Source: Defluviicoccus sp.
GTDB taxonomy: Bacteria; Pseudomonadota; Alphaproteobacteria; MPNO01
Assembly: GCA_028820505.1 (NCBI GenBank)
Contig: JAPPIT010000043.1
Coordinates: 1-64,000 of the forward strand
Length of the DNA: 64,000 nt
Reading direction: 5' to 3'
The notes beneath the pieces were generated by a model. That model saw only the letters and a program-made list of their open reading frames with translations, was not told the origin of the DNA and ran no database searches. The position numbers and the translations under genes were made by a program. Positions 1 through 55,758 of this stretch are shown piece after piece (the stretch's first letter is position 1; each line of letters starts with the position of its first letter).

Positions 1-983
1 CGGCGGCAGTTGTGTTCGGCCTTGGCGCCTGGCGCGTGATGTCCGGGGAAATGAGTATTGGCGCATTGATGGGATTCTATGTGCTGGCCGTCAACTTTCT
101 CCGCCCGGTATCCAGCATTGGCCAGTTTTCCGATCTGCTGGCGACATTGGAGGCAGATCTGACGAGAATGGATGATGTTTTCAACTCGCCGAAAGCCCCC
201 GCTCTGGCGAACCATGACGCAGAGCCGTACAGTCGGGTCCGGATGCTCAGCGGTCGCCTGCGGCTGGTCGGCCGACTGGAATTGCGTGCTGTCACCTTCG
301 GATTTCAGCGCAATCGCAAGCCCATTGTCGAAGACTTTAATTTGACGATCGAGCCCGGTCAACGCGTGGCGGTGGTGGGCGCCAGCGGTTCGGGAAAATC
401 CACTCTGGCGCTGCTCGCGGTCGGATTGCACCAGCCTTGGTCCGGCGAGATACTGTTTGACGGGTATTCACTGGCCGACATTCCCAGGGAAGTCTTCTGC
501 CGCTCGGTTTCCATTGTCAATCAGCAACCGATGCTGTTCGCCGCCAGCGTACGCGACAATCTGACAATGTGGGACACGACGACCCCGGAACGTCACATGA
601 TTGCTGCCGCCAGAGACGCGGCAATTCACGAGGAAATCATCAGACGGCCGGGTGGATACGGGTCGATGGTGGAAGAACGCGGACAAAATTTCAGCGGTGG
701 CCAGCGCATCCGGCTCGAGATCGCCCGGGCTCTGGTCAACAATCCGTCGCTGCTGATCCTTGATGAAGCGACCAGTTCGCTCGACCCTGCTACCGAGTTG
801 CAGATCGACGATCACATCCGCCGCCGGGGCTGCTCCTGTCTGGTCGTCGCCCATCGCCTCAGCACGATCCGCGACGCCGACCGTATCGTCGTCATGGACC
901 AGGGCCGCATCGTTGAGGAGGGAACCCACGACGATCTTTATGCCGACAACAGCTTCTATCGCAAGTTGATACATGGCGATTAA
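1..983 (+). CDS. NHLM/NHLP-type bacteriocin ABC exporter, ATPase end (5' truncated)
   Basis: This is the C-terminal part of an ABC exporter whose start lies left of the window; the frame is open from base 3. It retains the last membrane segments and a full nucleotide-binding domain: Walker A (GASGSGKST, near base 385), a Q-loop region (IVNQQPMLFAASV), the signature FSGGQ, and Walker B LLILDEATSSLD. It overlaps the next exporter gene by 11 bp. Such exporter pairs belong to NHLM/NHLP bacteriocin systems, where the first member usually carries an N-terminal C39 leader peptidase; that part is not visible here. Its inferred role is cleavage and export of a ribosomally made, post-translationally modified peptide through the inner membrane. 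Confidence 0.85.
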   Translation, partial: AAVVFGLGAWRVMSGEMSIGALMGFYVLAVNFLRPVSSIGQFSDLLATLEADLTRMDDVFNSPKAPALANHDAEPYSRVRMLSGRLRLVGRLELRAVTFGFQRNRKPIVEDFNLTIEPGQRVAVVGASGSGKSTLALLAVGLHQPWSGEILFDGYSLADIPREVFCRSVSIVNQQPMLFAASVRDNLTMWDTTTPERHMIAAARDAAIHEEIIRRPGGYGSMVEERGQNFSGGQRIRLEIARALVNNPSLLILDEATSSLDPATELQIDDHIRRRGCSCLVVAHRLSTIRDADRIVVMDQGRIVEEGTHDDLYADNSFYRKLIHGD

Positions 984-3882
984 GAACCGCCCGGACGGCG
1001 CATTGACCGCCTTCTTTTCAACGAGGGGTGAACACCGTGCCGTGGCGGGCAACCGCCCGATCCAGTTGAATGATTCCGGCCTCGTCTGGTTCGTCGAGGA
1101 GGGCGCGATCGACATTCTGGCGACGGAGCTTGCCGATGGCCGGATAGAAGCGCCATACCGGCACATCGCGCGCCTGGAAAAGGGCCGGCTGGCATTTGGC
1201 GTGGCCAATTCCGAGCATTCGATGCTGCTCGTCGCTAAGGGAGTTCAGGCGACAAGCCTGCGATGTCTTCCACTTGGGAGAGTGCTTGAAGAAACCGTCC
1301 GAGCGAGCGAAGCCAAGGGCGCCCTACCCGCCGCCGTCATCGCACAACTCGACGCGTGGGTCGAAGATCTCGCGCACGCGGTGGCGACTGAAGTCGAAAA
1401 TCCCCCCCGCATTGAGGGGTGGCTCGGTCCTGGCAGCGAGGCGGCACACGGCGTGTCGGCGGCCGAACGGGGTGTGGTATGGCTTTCCGCCGCTCGTCTT
1501 GATGCAACCTTCCTCGATGTGGTTGACTCCCGATCTGGATCGCCGGGCCTGATGCCCGTCACGCGAGACAGCTGGATCAAGCTGCATGCAACCAGCGGCG
1601 TAGCTTGCCGTTCTTCCCGGGAGCTGGGTGTCAAGGTGTTGCTTGACGCGGGCTTACCCGAGTTTCACCGCCTCGCTCTCGGGGCCGAATCAATTCATCG
1701 CCGTCTGCTGCTGGTGGACGACGCGAATCTGCAGGTGGCTCAGGCCGACCTGCGCCGCCGCGAAAAGTCGCTGGCAAGAAAAGGCCTGGCCGATCTGCTG
1801 GACTTCCGCACGCAGTCCAAAGGCCATACCGCGCTTGGCAAGGCCTTGCGGATCATCGGTGCGCGTGAAGGCCTTGAGATTCTCACGCCCGCCGTGTCTG
1901 GCGAAACCCAGGCGTCGCTGGATGATTATTGCGAAGCCTCCGGCCTGCGCCGGCGTGACGTGCGGCTGACGGTGGAAGACCGCTGGTGGCTGGGCGACAG
2001 CGGTGCGATGCTGGCGTTCCGCCGCCACAATGATCAGCCCGTGGTGCTGATGCCCGGACTTTTTGGGCGTTATCGGGTGATGGATCCGGAAACCGGCGAG
2101 GCCGTGCCGGCCAATGCCAGATCCGGCGCGGAGCTTCGAGACGCCTGTTTGCTGTATCCCGCGCTGTCCACCCACGGACCCGCCTCGATGGGCGCTCTGC
2201 TTCGCGTCGGAGCGGCCCCGATGACAGCCGAAATTCTCCGACTCACGGCCTTCGGTCTTGGTGCGGGATTGCTGGCCTTGGCACCCGCAATCGCGGTGAA
2301 TCTGCTTGTTGACCATGTAATTCCCGCCGGTGAGTCGATTGTCGTGTTCCAGTTCTCTGCGGTTCTGACCGGAATCGCGCTGACGGCAGCCTTGGCCCGG
2401 GTGCTGCGGGGCATAGCGCTGATGCGCCTCGAAGGGCGCCTTGCGGCGCGCATTGGCGCGGCTGTCCAGGACCGTCTGCTACGTATGCGGCTGCGGTTTT
2501 TCCGCCGCTTCAACACTGGCGAACTCGTGGCGAGATCGATGGTCTTTCAGGATGTCAGGGACAATGTCGCTGGGGTTACGGTCGATGCGGCTTTGTCGAC
2601 GATGTTCGCTTTGCCGGCTCTTGCCATGATTTTCCTGTACGATGCGGTTCTGGGCTGGACGGCGACCGCCCTGACCTTTGTCGTGCTCGCAGTCACCGCT
2701 GGCTACTGTGGCAGAATGGTTGAACACCATCGCCACTACCTGCGCTCATCGCGCCAGCTTCTGGGCGAATTGCATCAGTTTTTGAGTGGGATCGGGAAGC
2801 TGCGGACCACCGGGGCCGAGGACATGGCCTTTGCCGCCTGGGCTCGGCGCTATCGCGAGCAAAAGCACGAGGAAATCCGGCAGGCCGTCTTGAACGAGTG
2901 GATTGTCGCAATGGTCGCCGCGGTGCCTTTCCTCGGCAGCGCCGCGCTGTTTTCCGCGGTCGTTGCCCAGGGTGCGGACGGCCTTGCCACCGCCGACTTC
3001 CTCACGGTTCACACCGCGGCCATGTTCTTGTTCATGACCCTTGTCATGCTGGGCAATTCAGCCCGCTCGCTCGCTTTCGTCAAACCGGCCTGTGAGCAGG
3101 TGCAGCCAATTCTGGCCGCCGAGACGGACGTCAGCACGGCGCGGGGTGTGCGCAAGACGCTGCACGGGGAAATCCTGCTGGACAAGGTCAGTTTCGGCTA
3201 TTCGGAGAATGCCACAATCTTGCGGGACGTCAGCATCCACGCGAAACCTGGCGAATTCATTGCCATAGTTGGTGAATCCGGTGCCGGTAAAAGCACCTTG
3301 TTCCGGCTCGGCCTTGGCCTCGAAAGGCCAAATGCCGGGGCAGTATACTTCGACGGTCAGAGTCTCGATCAATTCGATATCGTCGCGGTGCGAAGGCAAA
3401 TCGGCGTCGTGACGCAGGATGTGCTCCTGCAAAGCGGCACCATTCTCGACAATATCATCGGCCACGACACTGAATTGAACGAAGAGGACGCCTGGCGCGC
3501 CGCCGGCCTCGCCGGAGTCGACGAAGATATCCGCGCCATGCCAATGGGCCTGCACACCCCGGTGGACGAGAACGCGACGACGTTCTCCGGCGGACAGAGT
3601 CAGCGAATCCGTATCGCCGCCGCGTTGATCCGCAACCCCCGCATCATCTTTCTCGACGAACCCACAAGTTGGCTCGACACTCGAAGCCAGACCCGAACGA
3701 TGCGGGCCATTGAGGAGTCCACAAGCACCCGCTTGGTCGTTGCACATCGGCTGTCCACCATACGCAGGGCGAACCGGATCTATGTGCTGCAGGCGGGCCA
3801 AGTGTCCCAAGTGGGAAGCTATGACGAGCTAGCTGCCGAAGAAGGCCTTTTTCGCGAACTGGTCCAGCGGCAGCAGGCGTAA
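973..3882 (+). CDS. NHLM/NHLP bacteriocin system ABC transporter, permease/ATP-binding protein
   Basis: A 969-residue exporter, much longer than a standard half-transporter. An N-terminal region of about 400 residues has no peptidase motif. It is followed by the membrane domain (about residues 420-700) and the ATPase: Walker A GESGAGKST near residue 766, signature FSGGQ near 870, and Walker B IIFLDEPTSWLD near 890. The length and order match the second member of NHLM bacteriocin exporter pairs, whose long N-terminus has no known catalytic role. The ATG lies inside the end of the preceding exporter gene, so the two are translationally coupled and probably work as a heterodimer. Its 3' end overlaps the convergent gene on the other strand by 54 bp. 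Confidence 0.85.
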   Translation: MAIKNRPDGALTAFFSTRGEHRAVAGNRPIQLNDSGLVWFVEEGAIDILATELADGRIEAPYRHIARLEKGRLAFGVANSEHSMLLVAKGVQATSLRCLPLGRVLEETVRASEAKGALPAAVIAQLDAWVEDLAHAVATEVENPPRIEGWLGPGSEAAHGVSAAERGVVWLSAARLDATFLDVVDSRSGSPGLMPVTRDSWIKLHATSGVACRSSRELGVKVLLDAGLPEFHRLALGAESIHRRLLLVDDANLQVAQADLRRREKSLARKGLADLLDFRTQSKGHTALGKALRIIGAREGLEILTPAVSGETQASLDDYCEASGLRRRDVRLTVEDRWWLGDSGAMLAFRRHNDQPVVLMPGLFGRYRVMDPETGEAVPANARSGAELRDACLLYPALSTHGPASMGALLRVGAAPMTAEILRLTAFGLGAGLLALAPAIAVNLLVDHVIPAGESIVVFQFSAVLTGIALTAALARVLRGIALMRLEGRLAARIGAAVQDRLLRMRLRFFRRFNTGELVARSMVFQDVRDNVAGVTVDAALSTMFALPALAMIFLYDAVLGWTATALTFVVLAVTAGYCGRMVEHHRHYLRSSRQLLGELHQFLSGIGKLRTTGAEDMAFAAWARRYREQKHEEIRQAVLNEWIVAMVAAVPFLGSAALFSAVVAQGADGLATADFLTVHTAAMFLFMTLVMLGNSARSLAFVKPACEQVQPILAAETDVSTARGVRKTLHGEILLDKVSFGYSENATILRDVSIHAKPGEFIAIVGESGAGKSTLFRLGLGLERPNAGAVYFDGQSLDQFDIVAVRRQIGVVTQDVLLQSGTILDNIIGHDTELNEEDAWRAAGLAGVDEDIRAMPMGLHTPVDENATTFSGGQSQRIRIAAALIRNPRIIFLDEPTSWLDTRSQTRTMRAIEESTSTRLVVAHRLSTIRRANRIYVLQAGQVSQVGSYDELAAEEGLFRELVQRQQA

Positions 3883-4899
3883 GCCTCCGTAGGCCTTGGC
3901 CCGTACGCCGTCTCCTTCGATCGATAACTTGATGTGGTTGAGTCCCATGTAGAGTTCAAACGCCCCGTCCGCGTCGAAGACCGTCCGCAGCCTGGGCCAC
4001 GAAAGCAGACCTTCGGCCTTGGCCGGGATGCACAACGACCGGTCCACCAAGCGCTGGATCACCGGTTTCCAGTCACGTTTCGAACTTATCAGCCAAGCGG
4101 CAAACAGGGCGCGGTAATTCATGATGTCTTCTGATATCGCATGCATCTCGAAGCCGAGCCTCGGCAATGCGCCGTTTTCATTGACATCAAGGAGGAGCAC
4201 AAAGTTCCGGCACAGATCCGCCATGCCGGACAGCAGGCAATCCACGGCGGTGATCGACCCCGGCCATTCCAGCTGCGTGAGCAAGGGTCCGACTTCTTGA
4301 GGTCCTATGTCCGCCACAAGCAACCGCACCGATCTGGGCTCACGGTTCGGAGTCGCACCGACATAGGCAAGCTTGGCACCCGTCGGCAAGGCGCCCAGCA
4401 CCCACGCCAGCGCGCGGTGCTCGGGTGCACTGCCAGTGCGCCCGGATGCCTGGGCAACGGTGTGCGCGATCGCCGCAGGGCCTGCGGCTATCCCGCCTTT
4501 GCCGCAACCGGACAGCAGCCGCAGGTAGGTCACCGGGGGCTCCGACCGCCCGGGAGGCACGCCGATGATGTCATAGGCCAGCAATACGGACTCGAGCCAA
4601 TGATCGGTGGCGGATGAGTTATTCAGGTGCGCGGCGAGCCAGGCGTCGACCGACCTCGGCTCCGCAGCTTCGCCCCTGACAATGTGGTGGCGCACAACCT
4701 TCTCCCTGGAAATCGGAGCCGAAAAGTCCGCCGACGGAGCCGACTCGTCTAGTCTGAACTCGAAGCCGCACAACGAGGACGCCGTGACGGCGGGAAGGTC
4801 TCCGACCCGTTCGAGCAGACGTCCCCAGCCTTCTCCGGCAAGCAGGGATAAAGGAATCTGGTGGCGTAATCCGTTCAATACATCCCCGAAACGCTCCAT
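3829..4899 (-). CDS. Unrecognised protein of the exporter/tailoring cluster
   Basis: A 356-residue protein I do not recognise. It has no signal peptide or clear membrane segment, and no classical nucleotide-binding or metal motif was found. The C-terminal third is the most distinctive, with GLNHIKLSIEGD followed by KAYGGLRL, which suggests a beta-rich end. An ATG with an AGGAG five bases upstream supports the start. It lies 21 bp downstream of the methyltransferase gene on the same strand, so the two form an operon, and it converges with the exporter gene. Its place among peptide-export and tailoring genes suggests a role in making or recognising the peptide, but this is inference only. Confidence 0.6.
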   Translation of the reverse strand: MERFGDVLNGLRHQIPLSLLAGEGWGRLLERVGDLPAVTASSLCGFEFRLDESAPSADFSAPISREKVVRHHIVRGEAAEPRSVDAWLAAHLNNSSATDHWLESVLLAYDIIGVPPGRSEPPVTYLRLLSGCGKGGIAAGPAAIAHTVAQASGRTGSAPEHRALAWVLGALPTGAKLAYVGATPNREPRSVRLLVADIGPQEVGPLLTQLEWPGSITAVDCLLSGMADLCRNFVLLLDVNENGALPRLGFEMHAISEDIMNYRALFAAWLISSKRDWKPVIQRLVDRSLCIPAKAEGLLSWPRLRTVFDADGAFELYMGLNHIKLSIEGDGVRAKAYGGLRLLPLDQFAKKAFFGS

Positions 4900-4904
4900 C
4901 GGCT

Positions 4905-4920
4905 CCTAGTCCCCACTAGG
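4905..4920. repeat. Small perfect hairpin between two minus-strand genes
   Basis: CCTAGT (4905-4910), a CCCC loop and ACTAGG (4915-4920) form a six-base-pair hairpin. On the minus strand it lies between the methyltransferase stop and the Shine-Dalgarno of the next gene. It may modulate translation of the downstream gene; it lacks the T-run of a terminator. Confidence 0.4.
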
Positions 4921-5706
4921 CTACGTCGCTGTCTTGATGGCGACGATTTCGCCCCAATGTACGGGCAAATCCGGCAACGGTCGAAATCGGGGAAGGCCGA
5001 ATTCGGGTTCCCTGGGTTTGTTAATGACCATCGAAGAAAGATCCAGCACTGACCTGACGGTAAAGCCGGTTGCCGAGAGCGCCGCCGCCATAACCTCCAT
5101 GGTTGGTGTGTGATGGACGTAAATCTGGCGAAACGCGGCGATCTGCTTCCATTCCTGTACGGTCATTTCTCCGGCCCTGCAAAACACATCCTTGATGTAG
5201 ACCCTCCCGTCATCGCGTAGCACTCTCGCCATTTCGCTGAAGAGTTCCTCAAGCTGAAAGGAATATCCGGCGGACTCGAGAAACAGTGCGCAGTCGAACT
5301 TCCGGTTAGGAAACGGTAGCTTGTGGTAGTCCCCCGCCTGCACATGGACCCGCCCGGCAGCCGGAGACTCGGTGATCATTTTTTGAGCAATCCCGGCCTG
5401 ATAGGGCGAGAGGGTTATTCCATGCACCTCGAGAGCCGGAAAATGCAGGGCCGCGCAAAGGCCGGGGCCGCCAACGCCGCAGCCGGCATCAAGCACCACT
5501 TGACCGTCGCGAACACCGGACCGCTTCAGGATGGCCCGATTGTTGTCCTCATAGGACTGACCTTCGATGTCTTCGTCGCAAATGATCCCGGCCTGCATGG
5601 TGGTGCCGAACTTCAGATAGTGGTCGGTCGTTTCGCGCCAGTAGCGAAGTTGCTCATCCTTCCACGACTGTGCAATTCCCGAGTTTTTCGCGGAACGAGT
5701 CTTCAT
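4921..5706 (-). CDS. Class I SAM-dependent methyltransferase
   Basis: A 261-residue cytosolic enzyme with a Rossmann methyltransferase fold. Motif I reads VVLDAGCGVGGPG near residue 75. An acidic position follows in EVHGITLSPYQ, and post-I motifs are visible in QAGDYHKLPFP and FDCALFLESAGYSF. The pattern resembles small-molecule C-, O- or N-methyltransferases of the cyclopropane-synthase/sterol type, so the substrate cannot be called. It is the first gene of a two-gene minus-strand operon with the unrecognised protein. A convincing promoter lies 27 bp upstream of its ATG. Context suggests a tailoring step on the exported peptide or an associated metabolite. Confidence 0.8.
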   Translation of the reverse strand: MKTRSAKNSGIAQSWKDEQLRYWRETTDHYLKFGTTMQAGIICDEDIEGQSYEDNNRAILKRSGVRDGQVVLDAGCGVGGPGLCAALHFPALEVHGITLSPYQAGIAQKMITESPAAGRVHVQAGDYHKLPFPNRKFDCALFLESAGYSFQLEELFSEMARVLRDDGRVYIKDVFCRAGEMTVQEWKQIAAFRQIYVHHTPTMEVMAAALSATGFTVRSVLDLSSMVINKPREPEFGLPRFRPLPDLPVHWGEIVAIKTAT

Positions 5707-5732
5707 TGTTTCCAGTTCCCTGTGCCGCGCGA

Positions 5733-5762
5733 ATTATATACAATGGAAGCATCGATGCGCAA
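5733..5762 (-). promoter_or_regulatory. Sigma-70-like promoter for the methyltransferase operon
   Basis: Reading the minus strand, TTGCGC (5757-5762) and a perfect TATAAT (5733-5738) are separated by 18 bp. Transcription would start near 5726, leaving a leader of about 20 nt with GGAAC before the ATG at 5706. The A+T-rich hexamer stands out in an otherwise G+C-rich region. Confidence 0.6.
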
Positions 5763-5916
5763 GATCGGGAAAGCAATCGGGCAAGGCGCATCTGTTCTTG
5801 GCGCTCTTGACGCCGATATCCGCCCGGAGCGCGGTCACGGGTCTCGCGTTTGTCAGCGTTCCGCACGATGAGCCGAAGCGAGGGGAAATCTTGGCCGACA
5901 TCAGGAGGAACCAGAC

Positions 5917-6009
5917 GTGAGGATGCGTTGCCAGGACGAGAACCATCGCTTGATGCATGTCGGTCCGGTCGATAGTCTGGACACGATCGCCACGTTGAAC
6001 AGGCATTGA
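5917..6009 (+). CDS. 30-residue ORF with a strong ribosome-binding site
   Basis: A short frame starts with GTG at 5917, seven bases after AGGAGGAAC, the best Shine-Dalgarno in this part of the cluster. It encodes a 30-residue, His- and Asp-containing peptide beginning VRMRCQDENH and ending with TLNRH. Its stop lies about a dozen bases before the ATG of the oxidoreductase gene, so it could serve as a coupled leader. A peptide precursor is another possibility, but it lacks the long NHLP or Nif11 leader expected for this exporter type. It may also be fortuitous. Confidence 0.35.
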   Translation: MRMRCQDENHRLMHVGPVDSLDTIATLNRH

Positions 6010-6020
6010 AAGATCGACAC

Positions 6021-6956
6021 ATGAGGGGACGATTGCCGACGCTCGTAGACGCGCCTTTTGTGATCTCGCATGGCATCTTCGTCAGCCCGCGGTATCGGTC
6101 TACGCGGCTGAATGCCAAGGAAGCGTTCGATCCGGATGGCGACCGGGACGCCCTTTGCCGCAAGATGATGCGAATTCATGACGCGCGGTCTCTTGCGCGG
6201 GCGCCGAGCATCGAACGCGAAGGTTTCAAGTTGGTCGAGGCGCCCGTTGATCTGGATTTCAGTAATCCTTCGCATGTGACCAGCCGCTATTTCAAACACT
6301 GCGAAGAACTGGTCAAGGCTGCCACGGGATGTCTGTCTGCCAAGGTTGTGCAGCACGGGTTTCGCGCCGGGAAAATCATCGGTCCCGCCCGCCAGGGTCT
6401 CTACGGGGTGGTCGTTCACGCAGACCATTCTCCCTTCATCGAGGATTTTCTCGGTGTGCAGGAGGGGCGGCACTTCGCCCTGTTCAACGTGTGGCGTGGA
6501 ACGAACCCTGATCGTGAAATCGAAATGGGGCCGCTGGCGCTATGCGATCTCGCCACGGTTTCCGCGGACGATATCGTTTACGCCGATTGCTTGCGGCGCT
6601 CCGAACCGCGAACCCGCGTTATCGATTGCCGCCTAGTTCACGATGCCGGTCAGGCTTGGTATTACTTCCCGCGAATGAAGCCGAGCGAGGCGCTGATCTT
6701 CAAGCAATACGACTCGCGCCGGGAAAACGCCGCTTCGCGCACGGTCTTTCATACCGCTTTCCAGGATCCGACCACCCGGGAAGATGCGCCCATGCGGGAG
6801 TCGTCCGAGGCTCGCGTCCTGGCGATTTTGCCCGAGGAGGATCCGGATCGCGAGCGCAGAAAGGCCAGATTCCAGGCCGAAGTGCCGAACACACGGTTGG
6901 ACGGCACGGTGTCGACGTGGCGTCAGGAGCCGGCGGTCGACTGGAGTATCACCTAG
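6021..6956 (+). CDS. CmcJ/NvfI family oxidoreductase
   Basis: A 311-residue protein with the hallmarks of the CmcJ/NvfI/AsaB family, which is related to cephamycin 7-alpha-methoxylation component CmcJ and to fungal isomerase/oxygenase NvfI. Visible features are FALFNVWRG in the centre, then WYYFPRMKPSEALIFKQYDS and RTVFHTAFQDP near the C-terminus. Family members act on secondary metabolites, some as 2-oxoglutarate/iron enzymes, others in partnership. The ATG at 6021 is preferred, and an in-frame TTG at 6006 is an alternative. It lies between two other tailoring-type genes and is read on the plus strand together with the following oxygenase, so a biosynthetic role is likely. Confidence 0.75.
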   Translation: MRGRLPTLVDAPFVISHGIFVSPRYRSTRLNAKEAFDPDGDRDALCRKMMRIHDARSLARAPSIEREGFKLVEAPVDLDFSNPSHVTSRYFKHCEELVKAATGCLSAKVVQHGFRAGKIIGPARQGLYGVVVHADHSPFIEDFLGVQEGRHFALFNVWRGTNPDREIEMGPLALCDLATVSADDIVYADCLRRSEPRTRVIDCRLVHDAGQAWYYFPRMKPSEALIFKQYDSRRENAASRTVFHTAFQDPTTREDAPMRESSEARVLAILPEEDPDRERRKARFQAEVPNTRLDGTVSTWRQEPAVDWSIT

Positions 6957-7023
6957 CGGCAGTTGCCAATGGTTGTCCCAGATTCGGCAAGAGAGCCGGC
7001 GCCCCACATCCTCCAGACTCCGG

Positions 7024-7629
7024 ATGACGTGCTCAATGGAAAAAGTTTCCTTCGATTACTCATGGACCAACCCGTATATTGTGCTCGATGACTTTTTTGA
7101 ACCTGATGAATTTGAAACCATAAAGGTGGGATTTGGCGATATTGACAGGAATTTCAATCCGAGAAGGCTGATTCTGGTTCTCAAATGCGCGTTCAGCTTG
7201 TCTGGGCGATGTGTCTACAATACCGCTCGTTGCAGCGAGGAAGAATTGCGGCCGATCAATGCACGATGCGTGACATTGCTATTGAACATGCTGGAGGAAC
7301 TGGCTCCGCATAAGTTGGATCAGGCCAAGTACATTGATTGGGGATTTCAGACAACACCCAAATCCTTGATTTACCCAATTCATCCGGATATTCCCGAGAA
7401 ACTGCTGTCGACAGTTGTCTATTGCAATCCCGAAGACAATTTTGGGACATTCCTGTTTTCCAACCAGGAAGGCGATGATCGTTTTGAGGTTCCCTGGAAG
7501 CAAAACCGGGCACTCGTATTCAGCAAGGCAGAAGATACGTGGCACAGTTATTCCTGTAACGACATTGAGCAAAGGTGTGCGTTGGTATTGAATGTCATGA
7601 GCAGTGTGGAGCCAATGCCGACGTCCTGA
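7024..7629 (+). CDS. 2-oxoglutarate/Fe(II)-type oxygenase
   Basis: A 201-residue (or 197, if the ATG at 7036 is used) small oxygenase-like protein. The iron-ligand set appears as His120-Pro-Asp122 in the IHPD segment and a distal His174 in DTWHSY. Arg184, ten residues later, would bind the 2-oxoglutarate carboxylate. The double-stranded beta-helix spacing fits prolyl-hydroxylase-like enzymes. Its base composition is clearly more A+T-rich than its neighbours, a sign of transfer. It follows the CmcJ-like gene by about 70 bp and converges with the halogenase. Its substrate is unknown; hydroxylation of a peptide or metabolite made by this cluster is inferred. Confidence 0.65.
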   Translation: MTCSMEKVSFDYSWTNPYIVLDDFFEPDEFETIKVGFGDIDRNFNPRRLILVLKCAFSLSGRCVYNTARCSEEELRPINARCVTLLLNMLEELAPHKLDQAKYIDWGFQTTPKSLIYPIHPDIPEKLLSTVVYCNPEDNFGTFLFSNQEGDDRFEVPWKQNRALVFSKAEDTWHSYSCNDIEQRCALVLNVMSSVEPMPTS

Positions 7630-7677
7630 CGCCCGCCGATAGACGATGATATGTTTCGGACAGGTGCGGGGGCGGGG

Positions 7678-9201
7678 TCACTCAACGGGTGCCTTGCAGT
7701 AGTCGTCAATGAAGGACTGGTGATCCGGAAGCTGCTCGACCAGATTGCTGACCTCACGACGGATTCCGTCGAGGAAGTCGCCAAGTTTCTCATCGCTCAT
7801 CGCGTTGACGGCGGGATGATGCTGTTCGGGCACCAACCCCTGACCGATCATTACCTGCAGCCAGGAGGTCTCGCCGAACAGTTCTTCCGACGTCTTGTAC
7901 ACCCGTCCCCCCTGTCTGAACAGTTCGATGCGATGCCTGAGAGAGTCCGGAATTTCCATCATGCGGCACTGCCGCCAAAACGGAGAATCCGTACGCTCCG
8001 TGACATGGTAGTGCAGGATGATGAAGTCCCGGATATTGTCGGCCTCGCGCAGCATCTGTTTGTTGAATTCGACGACAGTAGAATCCGGAATGCCGTTGTT
8101 CGGAAACATCTGCACCAGACGAGTGACGCTTTGCTGTATCAGGTGAATGCTGGTTGATTCCAGAGGTTCGATGAAACCGGACGCCAGCCCCACTGCCACG
8201 CAGTTCTTGTGCCAATGTCTGCGCCTCTGCCCGGCTCTGAAGCGAATGACACGGGGCTCTGTGAGCAGGCGCCCGGGAATGTTCTCGAGCAACCGGGCCC
8301 CGGCTTCGTCGTCTGACCAGTGCCGGCTGCTGAACACGATGCCGTTACCGACCCGATGCTGCAGAGGGATGCGCCACTGCCATCCCGCCTCTCGGGCGAT
8401 AGCACGCGTGTAGGGGCGCGGCGCCTCGGTTGACTCGGACTGAACGGTAATTGCGCTGTCGCAAGGCAGCCAGTGCCCCCAATCGTCGTAGCCGGCATTG
8501 AGCGTCTGTTCGATCAGAAGCCCGCGAAAGCCAGTGCAATCAATGAACAGGTCGCCTTCAATCAAGTGCCCGGACTGCAGGCGCAAGCCGGAAATGAAGC
8601 CGCTTTGCGGATCCTGTATCACCTGCTCGATACGCCCCTCGCGCCGAACAACGCCGTATTTTTCGGCGATGCCACGCAATAGCTTCGCATAGAGGGACGC
8701 ATCCAGGTGATAGGCATAGTCCAGAATGCAGTTCAGCATCAGTCCGAACCGCCTCTTTTGCGCCGCCGCCCACTCTTCGCAGTACTCTCCGAATTCTTTG
8801 GCGATGCCCAGAGTCCTGCCCCTGACCCAGAAATGCTGGAAATCGGCGACCCTGATGCTTCGTCCGGAATGGCCAAAGGTGTGGATGTAGCTCTTCTCGA
8901 GATCTCGCCAGTTCTCAAAGGAGATGCCCAGTTTGAACGTGCCCTGCACAGCACGTACGAACTCCGGCTCCCTGATCGCCAGGACACGGTGAATCCATTT
9001 CAGCGGGGGTATTGTCGCTTCCCCCACGCCCACCGTACTGATCTCCTCCGACTCGATCAGGGTGATATCAAGGGTCTTGCCGAGCAACTTTCCAAGCCCC
9101 GCCGCGGTCATCCACCCCGCAGTACCACCGCCAGCAATAACAACCTTGCGAATTTCTTTGTCGTTCAATGACCATCTCCGCGTGAGTGATGCACCGGACA
9201 T
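7678..9201 (-). CDS. Flavin-dependent tryptophan halogenase
   Basis: A 507-residue enzyme with all the marks of the PrnA/RebH family. It has the FAD-binding GGGTAGW at residues 24-30 and the catalytic-lysine position, Lys90 in GTFKLGISF. The WQWRIP motif (residues 274-279) blocks monooxygenase chemistry. EPLEST near residue 347 contains the conserved glutamate. The expected reaction is chlorination or bromination of an indole, using FADH2, O2 and halide, with a separate flavin reductase not present here. The substrate may be free tryptophan or a Trp residue in a peptide, as reported for some RiPP halogenases. The NHLM exporters and oxygenases nearby favour the second idea, which remains inference. 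Confidence 0.9.
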   Translation of the reverse strand: MSGASLTRRWSLNDKEIRKVVIAGGGTAGWMTAAGLGKLLGKTLDITLIESEEISTVGVGEATIPPLKWIHRVLAIREPEFVRAVQGTFKLGISFENWRDLEKSYIHTFGHSGRSIRVADFQHFWVRGRTLGIAKEFGEYCEEWAAAQKRRFGLMLNCILDYAYHLDASLYAKLLRGIAEKYGVVRREGRIEQVIQDPQSGFISGLRLQSGHLIEGDLFIDCTGFRGLLIEQTLNAGYDDWGHWLPCDSAITVQSESTEAPRPYTRAIAREAGWQWRIPLQHRVGNGIVFSSRHWSDDEAGARLLENIPGRLLTEPRVIRFRAGQRRRHWHKNCVAVGLASGFIEPLESTSIHLIQQSVTRLVQMFPNNGIPDSTVVEFNKQMLREADNIRDFIILHYHVTERTDSPFWRQCRMMEIPDSLRHRIELFRQGGRVYKTSEELFGETSWLQVMIGQGLVPEQHHPAVNAMSDEKLGDFLDGIRREVSNLVEQLPDHQSFIDDYCKAPVE

Positions 9202-10078: not shown

Positions 10079-13000
10079 TCATGTCTCGGCGGTCGTGTTG
10101 CCGCGCCGTCCGATGATGCGCCTGAACACGGAGCGGATGTCTTCGTCGACGACGAGAAGTGCAGGGATCAGAACGAGCACGATCAAAGTCGCCACTGCAA
10201 TTCCGAAAACGATTGTGATTGCCATGGGTACGAGGAACTGGGCCTGGAAGCTGCGCTCGAACATCAGAGGGATGAGACCGCCGATCGTCGTCAGCGAGGT
10301 GAGCAGCACGGGGCGCAGGCGATCCCGGCACGCCGCGACGATCGCCTCCGGCAGCGGCATGTCGTCGCCGATATACCCGTCCACGGTGCGGACGAGGATG
10401 ATCGAGTTGTTGACGAGAATTCCGGCCAGGCCCAGCAGGCCCAAGATGCTGAGGATCGTCAGGTCGAAGCCCAGGGCCAGGTGGCCCAGCACCGCCCCCA
10501 CGAAGCCGAACGGGATGATCGCCATGACGATCGCGGGCCGGCTGAAATTGGCGAACACCCAGGCGAGCACGATGTAGATGGCGAGAAGGGCGACGAGCGC
10601 ACCCGCGCGCATGTCGGCGGCGGATTGGGTCTGTTCCTCGGCCTTTCCCTTGAACCGGTAGCTCAGCCCGTAACGATTCGCGAGGTCGTCGAGCCCGCCG
10701 TCCACGACCGCGGGGAGCAGGGTGCCGAGGCTGGTGACGGTCTCGTCGATTTCCCCCGTGACGGCCACTTCCCGCGCCCCGTCCTCGCGGCGGAGGCGGG
10801 AGAACCCGCGCTCCTGACGCAGGGTGACGATTTCGCTCAGGGGCACTTCGGTCCCGTCCGGGGCGCGCAGGAACAGGTTGAGGAACGAGGCGCTGTCGGC
10901 GCTTCGGCGCGGATAGCGCACCTTGACGACGACTTCCTCGTCGCCGCGCGCGAAGCGCTGGGCGATCGCGCCCTGGAACGCGTTCCTCACCTGCAGCCCG
11001 GCGCTCTGGGTGGTGAACCCGAGGGCCCGGCCGCGCGGCGTCACTTCCAGAATCAGCTCCTGCTTGCCGTAGGGAAGATCGTCGTCGACCGAGCCGACGC
11101 CCGGAAAGCGCTCCAGCAGGCTCTTGACCTCCGTCGCGGCGGCCTTGAGGTCGTCGGCGGAGCCGCCGCGCAGGCGAATGTCGATTTCGCGCCCCGGGGG
11201 GCCGACCGCGCGCGCGTTGATATTGATCCGTTCGACGTTGGGCAGCGGCCGGATTTCCTCGCGCCATGCCTCGATGAACGCGTCGGTGCGCACCGAGCGC
11301 CGGTCCGAAGGCACCAGCTCGACCGTCAGGTCGCCATGTTCATTGCCCCAAGTCGAGCCGACTCTGCCGAAGCTCATGGCGACGAGGCCGGTGCCGTCCC
11401 CGGCAAGCCTCGCGGCCGTCCTGTCGGCGGCATCGGACAGTTCCTGCACCATGGCGGCGGTGTCGCGGCGCGGCGTGCCGGGAGCCATCACGACGTTCCC
11501 GATAACGACATCGGCCTCCGGCGAAGGAAAGAAGTGAAACCCCACGCGCCCGCCCAGCACCAGACCCGCCGAGACCAGGAAAAGCGCCAGGGCCGTGGCG
11601 ACCGTCGCGTAGCGCCAGCGCACGCAGAACCCGACCGTCCGCCGGAACGGGCCGGCCCGAAACCGGTCGAAGCCCGCGTCGAACCGCCGCATGACGAAGT
11701 TGCGCTGTCCGCCGTGCTTCTTCAGCGACTCCCTCAGATGACCCGGCAGCACCAGAAAGCATTCCACCAGGCTGGCGAGAATGACCGCGACCACCACCAG
11801 CGGGATGGCGCCCACGATCTGGCCGATGATGCCGCCCATCGCGACCAGCGGAAGGAACGCGGCGACCGTGGTCAGCGAGGCGGCCATCACCGGCGCCAGC
11901 ATGCGAAGCGCTCCCGCTTCCGCCGCCTGGCGCGGCGCGAGGCCGGCCTCGCGCCGCGCCGCGGCGTGCTCGCCGACCACGATCGTGTCGTCGACGATGA
12001 GCCCCAGGGTCATGATCAGCGCGAACAGGGTGACCATGTTGATGCTCTCGCCGAGCGCCATCATCGTCGCCAGCGCGGCCATGAACGCCGTCGGAATGCC
12101 GGCCGCCACCCAGAAGGCGGTTCGGCCGTTGAGGAAGACGAGAAGCACCACGGCGACCAGAACCAGGCCGGTCAGCCCGTTGTCCAGCAGAACGTCGACG
12201 CGCTGCTCGATCAGGTCGGCCTGGGCGTCGTATTGCTCGATGCGGAGCTGCGGCGGGTAGTTGCCGCGGGCCCGGGCGAGATAGCGGTCCACGATCTTTC
12301 CGACTTCGAGCGCGTCCGCCGTCGCCGAGCGCTGCACATGGAGCTCGATCGCCGGCCGGCCGTTGCGGAGCCCGATGGGAGTCTCTTCGTCGAACGCCTC
12401 CGTCAGGGACGCGATGTCGCGCAGAAAGATCTTCTGGCCGTCGTCGAGCGACCGGATCTCGAGGCTCCCGAGATCCCGCGAAGTGGTCTGCAGCCCCACG
12501 CTTCGCAGCTGCTTTTCGACCGACCCTTCGAGGTTGCCCGACGGAATATCCCGGTTGCTGGCTTCGATGCGCGCGGCGACCGCCGCCGGCGTAAGATCGA
12601 GCTGCCGCAGGACCCTGGGCTCGATCTCGACCAGGATTTCCTCGTCGCGCGCGCCGAAGAACGTCACCCGGTCGATCCCGGCGGCCAGCAATTCGTCGCG
12701 CATCCGCTTCGCCTGGCGCTTCAGCACGGCTTCCGAATAGGGGCCCGACAGGACCAGTCGCACGATCGTGTCGTAACGCATGATGCGGCGCACCACGGGC
12801 CGCTCGCTGTCGTCGGGCAGGGTGCCGATCTGCCGCACGGCGGATTCGACGTCCGACAGCGCCGATTGCATGTCGGCGCCCGCCTCGTATTCGACGACCA
12901 GCCACCCCACGCCCTCCGTCGCGTAGGAGGTGACCTTGTCGACGCGATCGAGGAAACGCACTCCCGGATCGATCGCCTCCAGGATATTGGCTTCGACGTC

Positions 13001-13180
13001 GCCGGCGCTCGCGCCCGGCCAGCTCACCTGGATCGAAATCACGTCGATGCCGAAATCGGGGAAGATCTGGGTGTTCAGCTTCAACAGCGAATAGGCGCCC
13101 GCGATGAAGATCAGCGCCATCAGCAGGTTGGCCGCGTTGCGGTGCCGTACGAACAGCCGGATCAGGCCCTTGCCGAACAT
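10079..13180 (-). CDS. RND efflux transporter permease
   Basis: A 1033-residue inner-membrane proton antiporter of the AcrB/HAE-like RND superfamily. The N-terminus has one transmembrane segment, then a large periplasmic porter domain (SWPGASAGDVE, SYATEGVGWLVVEY). A membrane block with GLIVDDTIVVGEH holds the family's acidic relay residues. A second porter domain and a final membrane block (GLAGILVNNSIILVRT) follow. The length is standard. It is downstream of its adaptor gene with a 20 bp gap, so they form an operon; no outer-membrane factor is encoded here. The substrate is unknown, and a protective role for nearby natural-product genes is possible but unproven. Confidence 0.92.
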   Translation of the reverse strand: MFGKGLIRLFVRHRNAANLLMALIFIAGAYSLLKLNTQIFPDFGIDVISIQVSWPGASAGDVEANILEAIDPGVRFLDRVDKVTSYATEGVGWLVVEYEAGADMQSALSDVESAVRQIGTLPDDSERPVVRRIMRYDTIVRLVLSGPYSEAVLKRQAKRMRDELLAAGIDRVTFFGARDEEILVEIEPRVLRQLDLTPAAVAARIEASNRDIPSGNLEGSVEKQLRSVGLQTTSRDLGSLEIRSLDDGQKIFLRDIASLTEAFDEETPIGLRNGRPAIELHVQRSATADALEVGKIVDRYLARARGNYPPQLRIEQYDAQADLIEQRVDVLLDNGLTGLVLVAVVLLVFLNGRTAFWVAAGIPTAFMAALATMMALGESINMVTLFALIMTLGLIVDDTIVVGEHAAARREAGLAPRQAAEAGALRMLAPVMAASLTTVAAFLPLVAMGGIIGQIVGAIPLVVVAVILASLVECFLVLPGHLRESLKKHGGQRNFVMRRFDAGFDRFRAGPFRRTVGFCVRWRYATVATALALFLVSAGLVLGGRVGFHFFPSPEADVVIGNVVMAPGTPRRDTAAMVQELSDAADRTAARLAGDGTGLVAMSFGRVGSTWGNEHGDLTVELVPSDRRSVRTDAFIEAWREEIRPLPNVERININARAVGPPGREIDIRLRGGSADDLKAAATEVKSLLERFPGVGSVDDDLPYGKQELILEVTPRGRALGFTTQSAGLQVRNAFQGAIAQRFARGDEEVVVKVRYPRRSADSASFLNLFLRAPDGTEVPLSEIVTLRQERGFSRLRREDGAREVAVTGEIDETVTSLGTLLPAVVDGGLDDLANRYGLSYRFKGKAEEQTQSAADMRAGALVALLAIYIVLAWVFANFSRPAIVMAIIPFGFVGAVLGHLALGFDLTILSILGLLGLAGILVNNSIILVRTVDGYIGDDMPLPEAIVAACRDRLRPVLLTSLTTIGGLIPLMFERSFQAQFLVPMAITIVFGIAVATLIVLVLIPALLVVDEDIRSVFRRIIGRRGNTTAET

Positions 13181-13200
13181 CTGTGCGTTTGCCCGCCGCG

Positions 13201-14442
13201 CTAGCGGAGCTCGACCCGCAAGCCGGGCGCCATCGCCACCGACTGGGTCGTCACCAGCCGCTCGCCATTCGACAACCCGCCGCGCAGGAGAACGTCATTG
13301 CCGACCCGGCCGACAACTTTCGACTGCCGCGCCACCAGCCGCCCGTCCTCCACTCCGTAGACGACATTGCCCGGATGCAGGACGGTCTCGGGAACTCTCG
13401 CGACATTGGCGTAAATCCGGTCCGGTACGTGAACCTCGACGAAGGCGCCGGGTCGCAGGGACGAGGCCGCTTCCCGGTTCTCGATCCGGGCGAACAGCTC
13501 GACGCCGCCGCTGGCGGTATCGATCTGCGCGCCCACCCGCGCGACCACCGCCTTCAGGTCGAGCCTCCGCTGTCCGACCCGCCATACGACCCGCGCCTTC
13601 CGCCCGATCACGCCCCGCTCCGTGCTGGTGAGCCGTCCGTACTGCGCGTCCGACAGGTGGAACCGCGCCTCGAGACGACCCGTCGCGATGAGGCTGCCCA
13701 CGCTCTCAGCGGTGTCCAGCCGCTGGCCCGCCTGCGCGGTGACATTCAGAAATACCCCGTCGAACGGGGCGCGCACCCTGGTCCGTTCGAGATCGTAGCG
13801 GGCCCGCTGCACCGCCACGTCGAGACGCTCGATGGTCGCTTTCTCCTGCTTCAGCCGCGCCGTCTCCGCGTCGATCCCGTTCTGCCGCAGCACGATCGCC
13901 CGTTGCTGGCGGCTCATCTCCAGTCGTTTCTTGTCCAGGGACTGGATCGAGATGTTCCCGCGTTTCCTCAGTTGAGTGGCGCGCTTCAGATCGCGGGCCA
14001 GCACGGCGAGGATTTCCCGGTCGCGCTTGAGGGCCTCGGTCTCGGCGCGCCGCTTCGCCTCCCGCTCGACGATCCGGGCCCTGGCCTCCGCCAGCCGGGC
14101 CTCGCTCTCCTTCAGTGCCGAACGGTATTCGAACTCGTCGATCGCGAGGATCACCTCGCCGCGGCGGATGAGCCCGCCCTCCACGAGATTGGGATGGATC
14201 TCGACGATCTGACCCGTCACGAGCGCCCGTATCTGGATCTGGCGGGCCGCGAATATCTTTCCGAAGAGCTGGATTTCCGGCTGTATGTCGGTCAGGCGCA
14301 CGGGCACGGAATCCACCGTCCAGACCCGTTCCGTCGGCGGAGACGGCTCGACGCTCGGCTTCGTGCGGATGAAATACAACGCTCCGACGGCGCCCGCGGC
14401 CAGCAGAACGATCGGCACCAGGACCAAGAGCACTTTTCTCAT
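13201..14442 (-). CDS. RND efflux periplasmic adaptor (HlyD/MFP family)
   Basis: A 413-residue membrane-fusion protein. The N-terminus has a single hydrophobic anchor (residues 4-26). A split biotinyl-lipoyl domain is seen in ALVTGQIVEIHPN and RVRAPFDGVFLN. It flanks a long alpha-helical hairpin (about residues 95-190, rich in Lys, Arg, Glu and Ala). Beta-barrel and membrane-proximal domains follow. It would link the permease encoded just downstream to an outer-membrane channel. It is the first gene of the two-gene operon; no promoter was identified with confidence. Confidence 0.88.
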   Translation of the reverse strand: MRKVLLVLVPIVLLAAGAVGALYFIRTKPSVEPSPPTERVWTVDSVPVRLTDIQPEIQLFGKIFAARQIQIRALVTGQIVEIHPNLVEGGLIRRGEVILAIDEFEYRSALKESEARLAEARARIVEREAKRRAETEALKRDREILAVLARDLKRATQLRKRGNISIQSLDKKRLEMSRQQRAIVLRQNGIDAETARLKQEKATIERLDVAVQRARYDLERTRVRAPFDGVFLNVTAQAGQRLDTAESVGSLIATGRLEARFHLSDAQYGRLTSTERGVIGRKARVVWRVGQRRLDLKAVVARVGAQIDTASGGVELFARIENREAASSLRPGAFVEVHVPDRIYANVARVPETVLHPGNVVYGVEDGRLVARQSKVVGRVGNDVLLRGGLSNGERLVTTQSVAMAPGLRVELR

Positions 14443-16141: not shown

Positions 16142-19100
16142 TTGGTCGCCAGTCTGAGCGAGGTGGGTTCGGCGTCGGCGACGGTGGGGTATTTCGCGCG
16201 CGAGGGATATTACGCGCAGGGCGACCGGCGTTCGTACATGTCGAGCTTCTGGCACGGCAAGGGCGCACGGGCGCTGCGTCTGCCGAAGCACGTCTCCTCG
16301 AAGCCGTTCGCGAAGATCCTGGCGGGCTTCGTTCCGGGGACGGAGATCCGTCTCGGCCGCGCGCGGGACGGCGAGCACCAGCACCGTCCGGGACTCGACC
16401 TGACCCTGTCGGCGCCCAAGTCCGTCTCGCTTGAGGCGCTGCTCCATGGCGACCGGCGGGTGACGGGCGCCCACGACGCGGCGGTGCGGGCGACACTCGA
16501 CTGGGTCGAGGCGGAGCTGTTGCAGACGCGCGGCTACGATCCCGCGACGGGGCGGCGTCCCCGGGTGGCGGCGGACGGTCTGGTGGCGGCGACGTTCCGG
16601 CATCTCACCAGCCGGGACCAGGACCCGCAGCTCCACACCCACTGCATCCTCGCCAACATGACGCGGAACCGGGCCGGCGATTGGCGCAGCATGGAGCCCA
16701 CGCAGATCCGCCGCAGCGTGAAGCTGATCGGGGCGTACTACCGCCAGGAGCTGGCGCGCCGGCTGATGGATATGGGCTTCCGGATCGAGACGACGATGAT
16801 CGGGGGCGTTCCGGGCTTCGAGATCGCGGGCTATCCGCGGCCGCTGCTGGACGAGTTCTCGTCGCGGCGGCGCGAGATCCTGTCGTGGCTGGAGAAGCAC
16901 GGGCTCCCCTACAGCAAGGCGCTGACCCAGCAGGCGGCGCTGATCACGCGCGCGCGCAAGACGGAGCGCGGCCTCGACGAGCTCAAGGCGGAGTGGACCG
17001 CGCGGGCCGGGAAGCTCGGGGTCGCGCGCGACAAGGGTATCGCCAAGCCGGGAAGGGGAAGGAAGTCCTCGAAGAAACCCGTCCTGAAGGCGGGCCGGCC
17101 CTACGTGCGGACGGACGAGGAGCTGGCTCCCGACCCGCCCGGCCTCAGCGCGCGCGAGATCGTCTGGCGGGCGGTGGAGCATCTGGCGGAGCGCGCCTCG
17201 GTGTTCCGCGAGAGCGACGTGCGGGCGATGGCGCTGAGCCACGCGCCGGGGCGGTACGCACTGGCCGAGATCGACGCCGCGGTGACGGACCTGCTCGGCG
17301 ACGGCCACCTCGTCGAGGCAACCGTGCGGGGCGGGCGCGCGTTCGTGACCGGCGACGCGCTGCGCTCGGAGCGCGAGATCCTGTCCCGCATGCGGGAGGG
17401 CAAGGGCGCGGCCAGGGCGCTGGCTCCGGAGGCGCGCGTCTCGGAGCGTATGGAGCGGACCACCCTCACCGCCGGGCAGAAGGAGGCGGTGCGGACGATC
17501 GTTCTCTCCGAGGATCGCATCGTCGCGGTGCAGGGCGCGGCGGGGACGGGGAAGACGACGATGCTGCGCGAGGCGCTGGGGCTGATCGGCGAGCGGCCGG
17601 CGATCCTGCTCGCGCCCTCGGCGGCGGCGGCGCGGGTGCTGGCGGACGAGACCGGCGCCCGCGCGCGCACCCTGCAATGGTTCCTGACGCGCCATGGCGA
17701 CCTCGGCAGCGCGGAGAAGATGAAGAGCGCGCGGCGGGAACACGAGGGCGCGGTTCTGGTGCTGGACGAGTCCTCGATGGTGTCGACGGCGCAGATGGAG
17801 CTTCTGATGCGGATCGCCGAGCGGCTCCGCATCGCGCGGCTGGCGCTGGTGGGCGACCGCGGCCAGCTGCGCGCGGTGACGGCGGGGGAGCCGTTCCGGG
17901 CGCTTCAGGAGGCGGGGATCGCGACCGCCGAGATGGACGAGATCATGCGCCAGCGCGACCCGGCGCTGAAGCAGGCGGTGGAGCGGCTCCAGGCGGGCCG
18001 GCCCTCCGAAGCGCTGGCGGGGATGACCGACATCTGCGAGGTGCCGCAGGACGCGCTCGGGGCGACGGCGGCGCGGCTCTGGCTCGAGTTGGACCCGGAG
18101 AAGCGCTCGGGCACCGCGATCCTGGCGCCCACCCACTTCATCCGCGCGGAGATCCACCGCATCGTGCGCGACGGGCTCGCGAGCGAGGGCGTGCTCCACG
18201 GGCGCGAGCTGGAGATCGAGCGCTTCGTGAACCGGCATCTGACGGCATCGCAGCGGGCGGACGTGAGGAACCACGAGCCGGGCGACTACGTCATCTTCCA
18301 CTCCCGCGTGCCGCCGCTCCGGGTCCTGGAGGGCGAGGCCTGCCGCATCGAGCGCGTCGAGGGGGAATATGTCCATCTCTCCCACCCGTCCGGGCGGACG
18401 ATCCGCATCCGGCCGGGGGACAGCTGGGTGCGCTACCGCTTCGCGATCCACGAGACGGCGCGCATCCATATCCGGGCGGGCGACCGGATCCGCTGGACCG
18501 CCAACGACAAGGTGCGCGGGCTGGTCAACGGCGGCGAGGCAACGGTGAGGGAGATCGGCTCCCGCCGGGTGCGCTTCGACCTCGCCAACGGCGAGACGCT
18601 GACGCTGCGCCGGGACGATCCGCAGCTGCGCCATATCGACCATGCGTGGAGCTCGACGGTGCACGCCGCGCAGGGGATGACGCGGGACGCGGCGATCGCG
18701 GTGCTGGATACCGGGCACGGCGAGCTTGGCGGCCAGGCGGCGCTCTATGTGGAGGCGAGCCGGGCGCGCGACCGGTTCGTGCTGGTGACCGACAACCGGG
18801 AGACGCTGGCCGAGGCGCTGGAGGAGAACGACGGGGCCGGCATGACGGCGCGCGAGGCGGTGGGCGAGGACGACGACCCGCCGCCCACCGCGCCGCCGCC
18901 CGCGGCGGTGGGGATGATGCGGGAGTTCAGGGACGACTGGCGGGCGCTCGCGGCCACGGCCGAGGCGGAGAACCTTGAGCTCAACCGCATGGACGATTAC
19001 GCCCGGATCGTGACCGGGGTGGCGGCGCTCGCCGAGGGGATCGACCTGCCCGCCGATCTCGCCGCGTTCGCGGCCGAGGTGCGCGACCGCGACGCGGCGA

Positions 19101-54814: not shown

Positions 54815-55423
54815 ATGGCACACGATCACGCTCATAACGCTCCTCCATCCGACACGGCGATGCGTGTGAAGGCTCTGGAGACACTGCTCACCGAAAAAGG
54901 TCTGCTCGACCCGGCCGCCATCGACGCCTTGGTGGACACCTACGAGAACCGGATCGGTCCGCGCAACGGCGCCAAGGTCGTCGCCCGGGCGTGGACGGAT
55001 CCGGAGTACAAGAAACGTCTGCTCGAGAACGGAACGGACGCCATCGCGGAGTTCGGCTTCAGCGGCGTGCAGGGCGAGGACATGGTGGTCGTCGAGAACA
55101 CCGAGGACGTGCACAACATCGTCGTGTGCACGCTTTGCTCCTGCTATCCGTGGCCGACGCTCGGGCTGCCACCCATCTGGTTCAAGAGCGCGCCCTACCG
55201 GGCTCGCACGGTCATCGATCCGCGCGGCGTTCTCGAGGAGTTCGGCGTCGAGCTGTCGGAGGACATCGAGGTACGGGTCTGGGACAGCAACGCCGAGCTT
55301 CGTTACCTGGTGCTGCCGCAGCGCCCGGCGGGCACGGAAGGGATGAGCGAGGACGAGTTGGCGGGGCTGGTGAGCCGCGACTCGATGATCGGCACGGCGC
55401 TGGCCGACGCGCCCGCCGGCTGA
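54815..55423 (+). CDS. nthA: Cobalt-type nitrile hydratase alpha subunit
   Basis: A 202-residue metalloenzyme subunit. The active-site loop reads [11 protein letters not shown], with Cys105, Cys108 and Cys110; Thr after the first Cys marks the cobalt form. Downstream [20 protein letters not shown] is conserved. The N-terminal half contains [12 protein letters not shown] and [15 protein letters not shown]. It hydrates nitriles to amides with the beta-type chains encoded next. It is followed after 23 bp by the split beta genes. The alternative is thiocyanate hydrolase gamma subunit, which has the same loop. Confidence 0.9.
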
Positions 55424-55446
55424 CCGATCCCCAGGGGAGCAAAGCG

Positions 55447-55758
55447 ATGAACGGCATACACGACATGGGCGGCATGCAGTGCATGGGTCCGATCGAGCGC
55501 GAGGAGAACGAGCCGGCATTCCACGAGGAATGGGAAGGCCGGGTGTTCGGAATGTTCTTCACCAACTTCGCGGAAGGTCATTTCAACGTCGACATGTTCC
55601 GCCACGGCATTGAGCGGATGGGACCGGCGGAGTATCTGGAGACCTCGTATTACGAGCACTGGCTGCACTCTTTCGAGACGCTGCTGGTGGAACGCGGCGT
55701 GCTGGCCGAGGGCGAGCTTGAAGAAAAGATCGCAAGCCTTCGCGAAGCGGGAGGTTGA
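55447..55758 (+). CDS. Nitrile hydratase beta subunit, N-terminal part (separate gene)
   Basis: A 103-residue protein equivalent to the front half of NHase beta: MNGIHDMGGMQCMGP, then EPAFHEEWEGRVFGMFF, MFRHGIERM and YYEHWLHSFETLLVERG. It ends at a genuine TGA, two bases before the next ATG, so the beta subunit is made as two polypeptides. Split chains occur in thiocyanate hydrolase and toyocamycin nitrile hydratase. A good ribosome-binding site AGGGGAGC precedes the start. Confidence 0.88.
   Translation: MNGIHDMGGMQCMGPIEREENEPAFHEEWEGRVFGMFFTNFAEGHFNVDMFRHGIERMGPAEYLETSYYEHWLHSFETLLVERGVLAEGELEEKIASLREAGG

Follow-up and report, generated by a model that had tools for sequence, protein, structure and literature searches.

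What does a run of genes that sets two peptide exporters beside a halogenase, oxygenases and a methyltransferase produce, and how much of the original cluster is present at the end of a contig? The window analyzed here, 64,000 nucleotides from a Defluviicoccus genome, opens with such a run: seven genes fill positions 3-9201, and the window begins at the first base of contig C147 (in an assembly of 5.49 Mb and 228 contigs). The initial annotation had named exporter, halogenase, oxidoreductase, oxygenase and methyltransferase genes and an unrecognized 356-residue protein, all of which we find where it had placed them. It had suggested that they form a RiPP cluster whose precursor and core modifying enzyme lie outside the window. 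We think that the segment is probably the distal two-thirds of a proteusin cluster (a RiPP cluster with an NHLP leader) on a mobile island, whose enzymes, judging by their genes, would prenylate, halogenate, oxidize and methylate the product. The features on which this reading draws are the following.

3-983, + strand: 3' part of an NHLM ABC1 exporter (permease/ATPase; its C39 peptidase half lies beyond the contig end); TIGR03796, 448 bits, profile positions 392-710
973-3882, + strand: NHLM ABC2 exporter, 969 aa; TIGR03797, 649 bits, slightly below the cut-off of 709
3829-4899, - strand: 356-aa protein, predicted ABBA-fold peptide prenyltransferase from fold and context; no Pfam or NCBIfam match
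4921-5706, - strand: class I SAM methyltransferase; Methyltransf_25, 8e-15
6021-6956 (start at 6006 or 6021), + strand: CmcJ/NvfI-family non-haem Fe/2OG oxygenase; NF041278, 172 bits, cut-off 80
7036-7629, + strand: putative second Fe(II)/2OG oxygenase, 197 aa; sub-threshold 2OG-FeII_Oxy_3, E 0.014
7678-9201, - strand: flavin-dependent tryptophan halogenase, 507 aa; PF04820, 625 bits
9471-9656, - strand: transposase remnant (rve_3) at the right edge of the island; PF13683, E 7e-5, below cut-off
16184-21397, + strand: TrwC-type relaxase/helicase; TrwC, 253 bits

The cluster is cut inside its first exporter by the contig end, and its own precursor is off the contig. The ABC1 fragment is 83% identical to residues 394-719 of the ABC1 of a related locus (L069), and ABC2 is 77-78% identical to its counterparts in L066-L069. 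An ABC1 search of the whole assembly placed the missing N-terminal half on no contig, matching the half in the window and the ABC1 of contig C159; NHLP-leader searches of the same genome found no second intact NHLP precursor in the assembly. The latter matched the C159 precursor, a C159 leader fused to a cyclase-like protein, ordinary nitrile hydratases and a decayed copy on contig C6. This copy (L051:3654-3923, ending LCSCW) and one in genome G003 (L056:2565-2837, ending LCCCW) are orphan or decayed NHLP precursors away from clusters. The window itself carries, at 54860-55758, a nitrile hydratase alpha subunit gene and the beginning of a beta subunit gene, the family after which NHLP leaders are named.

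The relatives indicate what the left end may have held. We scanned 84,980 species genomes for the 356-aa protein. Four MAG contigs emerged, of which three bear the name Boseongicola and the fourth is gammaproteobacterial; we take them to be from sponge (Ircinia) metagenomes. They keep the gene order and strands of the window at 73-83% protein identity. We call this window-like arrangement "W-type"; its conserved unit runs precursor, ABC1, ABC2, prenyltransferase-like gene, methyltransferase and CmcJ/NvfI oxygenase, followed variably by the 2OG gene, which is missing in the Boseongicola copies, and the halogenase. A phylum-wide sample of 398 genomes contained hardly any additional copies. In L066-L069 an 87-aa NHLP precursor adjoins ABC1, its leader ending GAAGG and its core reading WAPTSSSY in L066-L068 and FAPTNDSY in L069; the ABC1 of L066 begins with the C39-type sequence QLEATDCGAAC. 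Gene order is thus kept in relatives of two proteobacterial classes, with an NHLP-leader precursor beside ABC1. These were the two points on which the initial annotation had said that it could be refuted, and both results support it in reading these genes as one RiPP cluster. Two loci show local peculiarities. In Boseongicola, the halogenase is separated from an MMPL transporter by a row of small related proteins, perhaps for mobilization (L068:3854-5700), one of them weakly resembling a gene of L093. In G410, a broken second prenyltransferase homologue lies beside the 2OG and CmcJ genes (L110:39-1029), a sign of repeated rearrangement.

NHLP-leader precursors are present in L066-L069, L091, L093 and L131. 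Their leaders match NHLP/nitrile-hydratase alpha models, not Nif11, and retain a motif of the L(X)4L type, here LSDEEL; in SrpE such a motif is the SrpI docking site (PMC10858898). Further W-type cores are FAPGGDSW (G210, L091), IAPTDDSY (G389 and G410, L093 and L110) and IGDIDTW, which is found with an adjoining halogenase in L069b, L131 and L133 and spans both classes. All these W-type cores have 7-8 residues, follow GG and end in Trp or Tyr. Which enzyme, then, would modify the core? At the W-type loci that were checked for a YcaO, none lies nearby, and the W-type cores are devoid of Cys; no LanM-like gene was recognized among the W-type cluster genes, and no YcaO, LanM or rSAM enzyme among the genes of the fetched relatives. 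The initial annotation was right to place the precursor outside the window, but of core modifying enzymes none need be missing.

What is the 356-aa protein? It has no match in Pfam or NCBIfam, and a profile of its family found no prenyltransferase among PDB sequences. Its AlphaFold2 model, made from nine sequences (pLDDT 67, pTM 0.71), consists of repeated helix-helix-strand-strand units. A Foldseek comparison with the PDB returned ABBA-fold aromatic prenyltransferases at nearly all of ranks 1-34, with CloQ at probability 1.00 and E 5e-4 for a model of moderate confidence, and with NphB/Orf2, EpzP, AmbP3, FamD1, DMATS1, FgaPT2 and AnaPT among the other matches. The superposition is loose (rmsd 7-13 A) and supports the fold class, not the detail. 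Seven residues (R186, R192, D238, H322, K324, K335 and Y337) are invariant across nine W-type homologues. We predict that the protein is an ABBA-fold prenyltransferase, an assignment that rests on fold and context because sequence profiles gave nothing; prenylation would then have to be added to the product. Alternatively, in a cluster that still makes a halogenated proteusin, the protein might bind the leader or serve as a scaffold, its fold resembling ABBA. This would agree with the absence of prenyltransferase matches at the sequence level, with the moderate model and with the occurrence of homologues alongside very different cores. Such a role is nevertheless unlikely in view of the fold matches, of the conservation of basic residues and tyrosines in the strands of the barrel and of homologues adjacent or fused to squalene-hopene-cyclase-like domains, the fusions occurring in three other genomes. 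The latter architecture is published for the RiPP enzyme NctPC, as far as it is outlined in PMC13290415, citing Hubrich 2024. The fusions that we found (L081, L082 and L083; 686-735 aa) combine the prenyltransferase-like domain with a toroid resembling squalene-hopene cyclase, and in L082 and L083 a possible HPr-kinase-like gene, recognized by eye, lies immediately upstream.

If the protein is a prenyltransferase, which residue would it modify? In G285, 11 tandem NHLP precursors surround one prenyltransferase homologue (L094:9334-14893); most of their cores are wholly different. Because all 11 end in Trp in a genome where the halogenase has no match, residue conservation suggests that prenylation would take place at the C-terminal aromatic residue. 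There is a precedent for prenylation of a C-terminal Trp on an NHLP precursor in PalX/PalQ, where the enzyme fold is unrelated (PMC10853753).

The halogenase carries GGGTAGW at 24, K90, WQWRIP at 274 and EPLEST at 345, the motifs of flavin-dependent tryptophan halogenases. Its PF04820 score is 625 bits, that of the SrpI-type enzyme of contig C159 is 155, and the two types match each other only weakly; it is not SrpI-like. Its best solved relatives are 6y1w, 9luq and 6frl, the last presumably BrvH. That such relatives (6frl, for example) have no known peptide substrate, that the gene is transcribed apart from ABC1/ABC2 and that it is missing in some relatives could suggest a separate small-molecule pathway, acting on free Trp or indole, that happens to adjoin the peptide cluster. 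We regard this as improbable given how the gene is placed and how it is related. In Boseongicola its neighbour is CmcJ; in L131 and L069b, where the IGDIDTW precursor, halogenase, prenyltransferase and CmcJ genes are grouped, it lies between the first and the third of these. There are thus two arrangements in two classes. Its identity is 82% to the L066 enzyme and 66% to those of L069b and L131, whereas other full-length halogenases of the same order are only 31-35% identical.

The distribution of tryptophan in the cores bears on the substrate of a halogenase within the peptide cluster. Both distinct cores that occur with a W-type halogenase (WAPTSSSY and IGDIDTW) contain Trp, and the genomes with the Trp-free core IAPTDDSY (G389 and G410) have no W-type halogenase, their SrpI-type enzymes serving srp clusters. 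FAPGGDSW contains Trp, yet its genome lacks a W-type halogenase; together with the 11 Trp-ending cores of L094, also without this halogenase, it refutes a strict rule by which Trp is in the core if and only if the halogenase is there. We also dropped the notion that L069a has no halogenase, since that of the sister cluster lies about 1.3 kb from the L069a precursor (FAPTNDSY, no Trp); of the two adjacent precursors at L069, either may be its substrate. In the srp-type family, LCCCW accompanies the SrpI-type enzyme at most fetched loci, and the genomes with LCCCGF (G002), LCCCF (G310) and RCCC (G312) have no SrpI-type halogenase. A rule by which the halogenase implies Trp fits the data, in which independent cases are few. 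On the evidence of the genes, the product would be halogenated, and bromine is more likely than chlorine only by analogy with SrpI and MppI.

One or two oxygenases may also take part. The CmcJ/NvfI protein belongs to its family above the curated cut-off and matches the NvfI structure 7de2 at E 1.5e-12. The 197-aa protein reaches 16.8 bits to 2OG-FeII_Oxy_3, below the cut-off of 27, and its residues H116, D118, H170 and R180 are invariant in four homologues, giving an HxD...H...R pattern. Its structure model is poor (pLDDT 46), and a fold search without matches is uninformative at that quality. A PHROG match to "DNA endonuclease V" was not accepted as its function.

The methyltransferase gene shares its strand with the prenyltransferase gene and lies about 20 bases from it in the window (20-28 bases across the window and L066-L069a), a place held by a cyclase-like gene in L091, L093 and L110. 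A count of loci by cyclase or METHYLTRANSFERASE, taken up to 6 kb from a prenyltransferase homologue, gave 14 with the cyclase-like gene but no related methyltransferase, eight with a methyltransferase but no cyclase, four with neither and none with both; the counted loci are related, so these numbers overstate independence, and L054, cut between both genes, was left out. We infer that the methyltransferase and the cyclase-like protein would share the prenyl unit as their target.

The same genome holds a sister cluster, which lies outside the window that the initial annotation covered. Contig C159 encodes an NHLP precursor with the core LCCCW, a YcaO, RND and HlyD-like proteins, ABC1, ABC2, a cyclase-like protein and an SrpI-type halogenase; beside the cyclodehydratase gene stands a 372-aa homologue of the 356-aa protein (28% identical). 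The YcaO is the only one of the genome. This cluster is complete and of srp type (L017:8766-9080 and L018:764-4206), and its cyclase-like protein starts with an NHLP leader-like domain. Four further genomes of the genus, and members of other families, carry the gene set or a variant of it. In sponge srp clusters the core of SrpE is LCCCW; its three Cys become thiazolines and its Trp is brominated by SrpI (PMC10858898).

How does the W-type arrangement compare with published systems? It shares with srp the NHLP leader, ABC1/ABC2, a flavin halogenase, a related prenyltransferase-like protein and sponge symbionts as hosts. The srp clusters combine an LCCCW core with the YcaO SrpC, whereas we saw no YcaO with the window type and no CCC in the cores of its relatives; their halogenase is a divergent enzyme of about 424 aa against the full-length enzyme here, which comes with a CmcJ/NvfI oxygenase in addition and with a methyltransferase where srp has the cyclase-like gene. 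In Moorena producens, the mpp cluster for a lanthipeptide (PMC11791876) also encodes halogenase along with prenyltransferase and oxygenase and has a GG site as well as a Trp-containing core of 7 residues, but its single leader peptide is Nif11-like and occurs with LanM, a terpene synthase and arginases; here the leader is NHLP, no LanM was seen and there is a methyltransferase. NctPC and similar enzymes, as PMC13290415 presents them from Hubrich 2024, share a prenyltransferase of the ABBA fold whose target is Trp in a ribosomal peptide, and a cyclase partner in related loci; NctPC is fused, whereas the prenyltransferase of the window stands alone with no adjoining cyclase. PalX/PalQ of Paenibacillus alvei (PMC10853753) has an NHLP-type precursor with a conserved, prenylated C-terminal Trp, but PalQ has an isoprenoid-synthase fold, not ABBA, and the Pal system has no halogenase or oxygenases.

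The island appears to be mobile. The block is GC-poor (GC3 of 0.55-0.75 against 0.86-0.93 in flanking genes), and the relaxase gene lies 7 kb beyond the transposase remnant. Relaxase homologues, 42-46% identical, occur next to W-type clusters or within about 10 kb of them in L068 (Boseongicola), L091 (G210) and L109 (G389). In L068 and L091 the relaxase gene stands immediately before that of the precursor and has the same orientation. A total of 370 kb surrounding clusters of srp type contained no such homologue. In the prenyltransferase tree, gammaproteobacterial copies are nested within alphaproteobacterial groups twice. Directly adjoining the island, at 10079-14442, are an AcrB-type RND efflux pump and a HlyD-type partner with host-like GC3. 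The transposase fragment, the left end missing from the assembly and the decayed LCSCW precursor on C6 might suggest a decayed, non-functional remnant on a mobile island, which is very improbable because the six complete genes are all open, 73-84% identical to full-length homologues and intact in their catalytic motifs, and because the cut is a contig end, not a demonstrated genomic break.

For a functional proteusin cluster, we propose the following course. An NHLP leader of about 80 residues, ending in GG, would carry a linear core of 7-8 residues. The ABBA-fold enzyme would transfer a prenyl group to the C-terminal Trp or Tyr, and a core Trp would be halogenated by the flavin enzyme, bromide being the probable halide. 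The CmcJ/NvfI enzyme, and with it perhaps the putative 2OG enzyme, may oxidize the core or the prenyl chain, and the methyltransferase, in place of the terpene-cyclase-like gene of sister clusters, may add its methyl group to the prenyl unit or to the peptide itself. With its C39 peptidase, ABC1 would cleave after GG, and the ABC1/ABC2 pair would export the product. With no YcaO, LanM or rSAM enzyme recognized, tailoring of side chains may be the whole modification.

Halogenated proteusins (srp), a RiPP cluster with halogenase, prenyltransferase and oxygenase (mpp, PMC11791876) and ABBA prenyltransferase-cyclase RiPP enzymes have already been published, and a 2022 sponge survey describes many modified proteusin families, its text not naming the gene set of the window (PMC9426513). 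Relative to the papers compared here, it is new that these genes are combined, that the linear cores are short with Trp or Tyr at the end, that the halogenase is of the full-length tryptophan-halogenase kind and that the setting is mobile; new as well is the predicted identity of the prenyltransferase, which touches srp too. Tentatively, and with slightly less than even confidence, we suggest a subclass: mobile proteusins of sponge symbionts that have no backbone- or ring-forming enzyme, in which a stand-alone ABBA enzyme prenylates the C-terminal aromatic residue of a linear core of 7-8 residues, Trp is halogenated and the prenyl group is cyclized or methylated, never both, the srp bromopeptides being likewise prenylated and of terpene type.

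These predictions could have consequences for the search for sponge products. If the 356-aa protein is correctly assigned, prenylation probably extends to srp products; the srp clusters are widespread in sponges, and their products are apparently still cryptic. Should this protein and its srp homologue be peptide prenyltransferases, the mass of one prenyl unit would enter the search of sponge extracts, and the two families of products would be directly testable. If our reading is true, it would also provide a substrate for full-length "tryptophan" halogenases that lack clear natural targets, and it would mean that proteusin clusters move between proteobacterial classes within the sponge.
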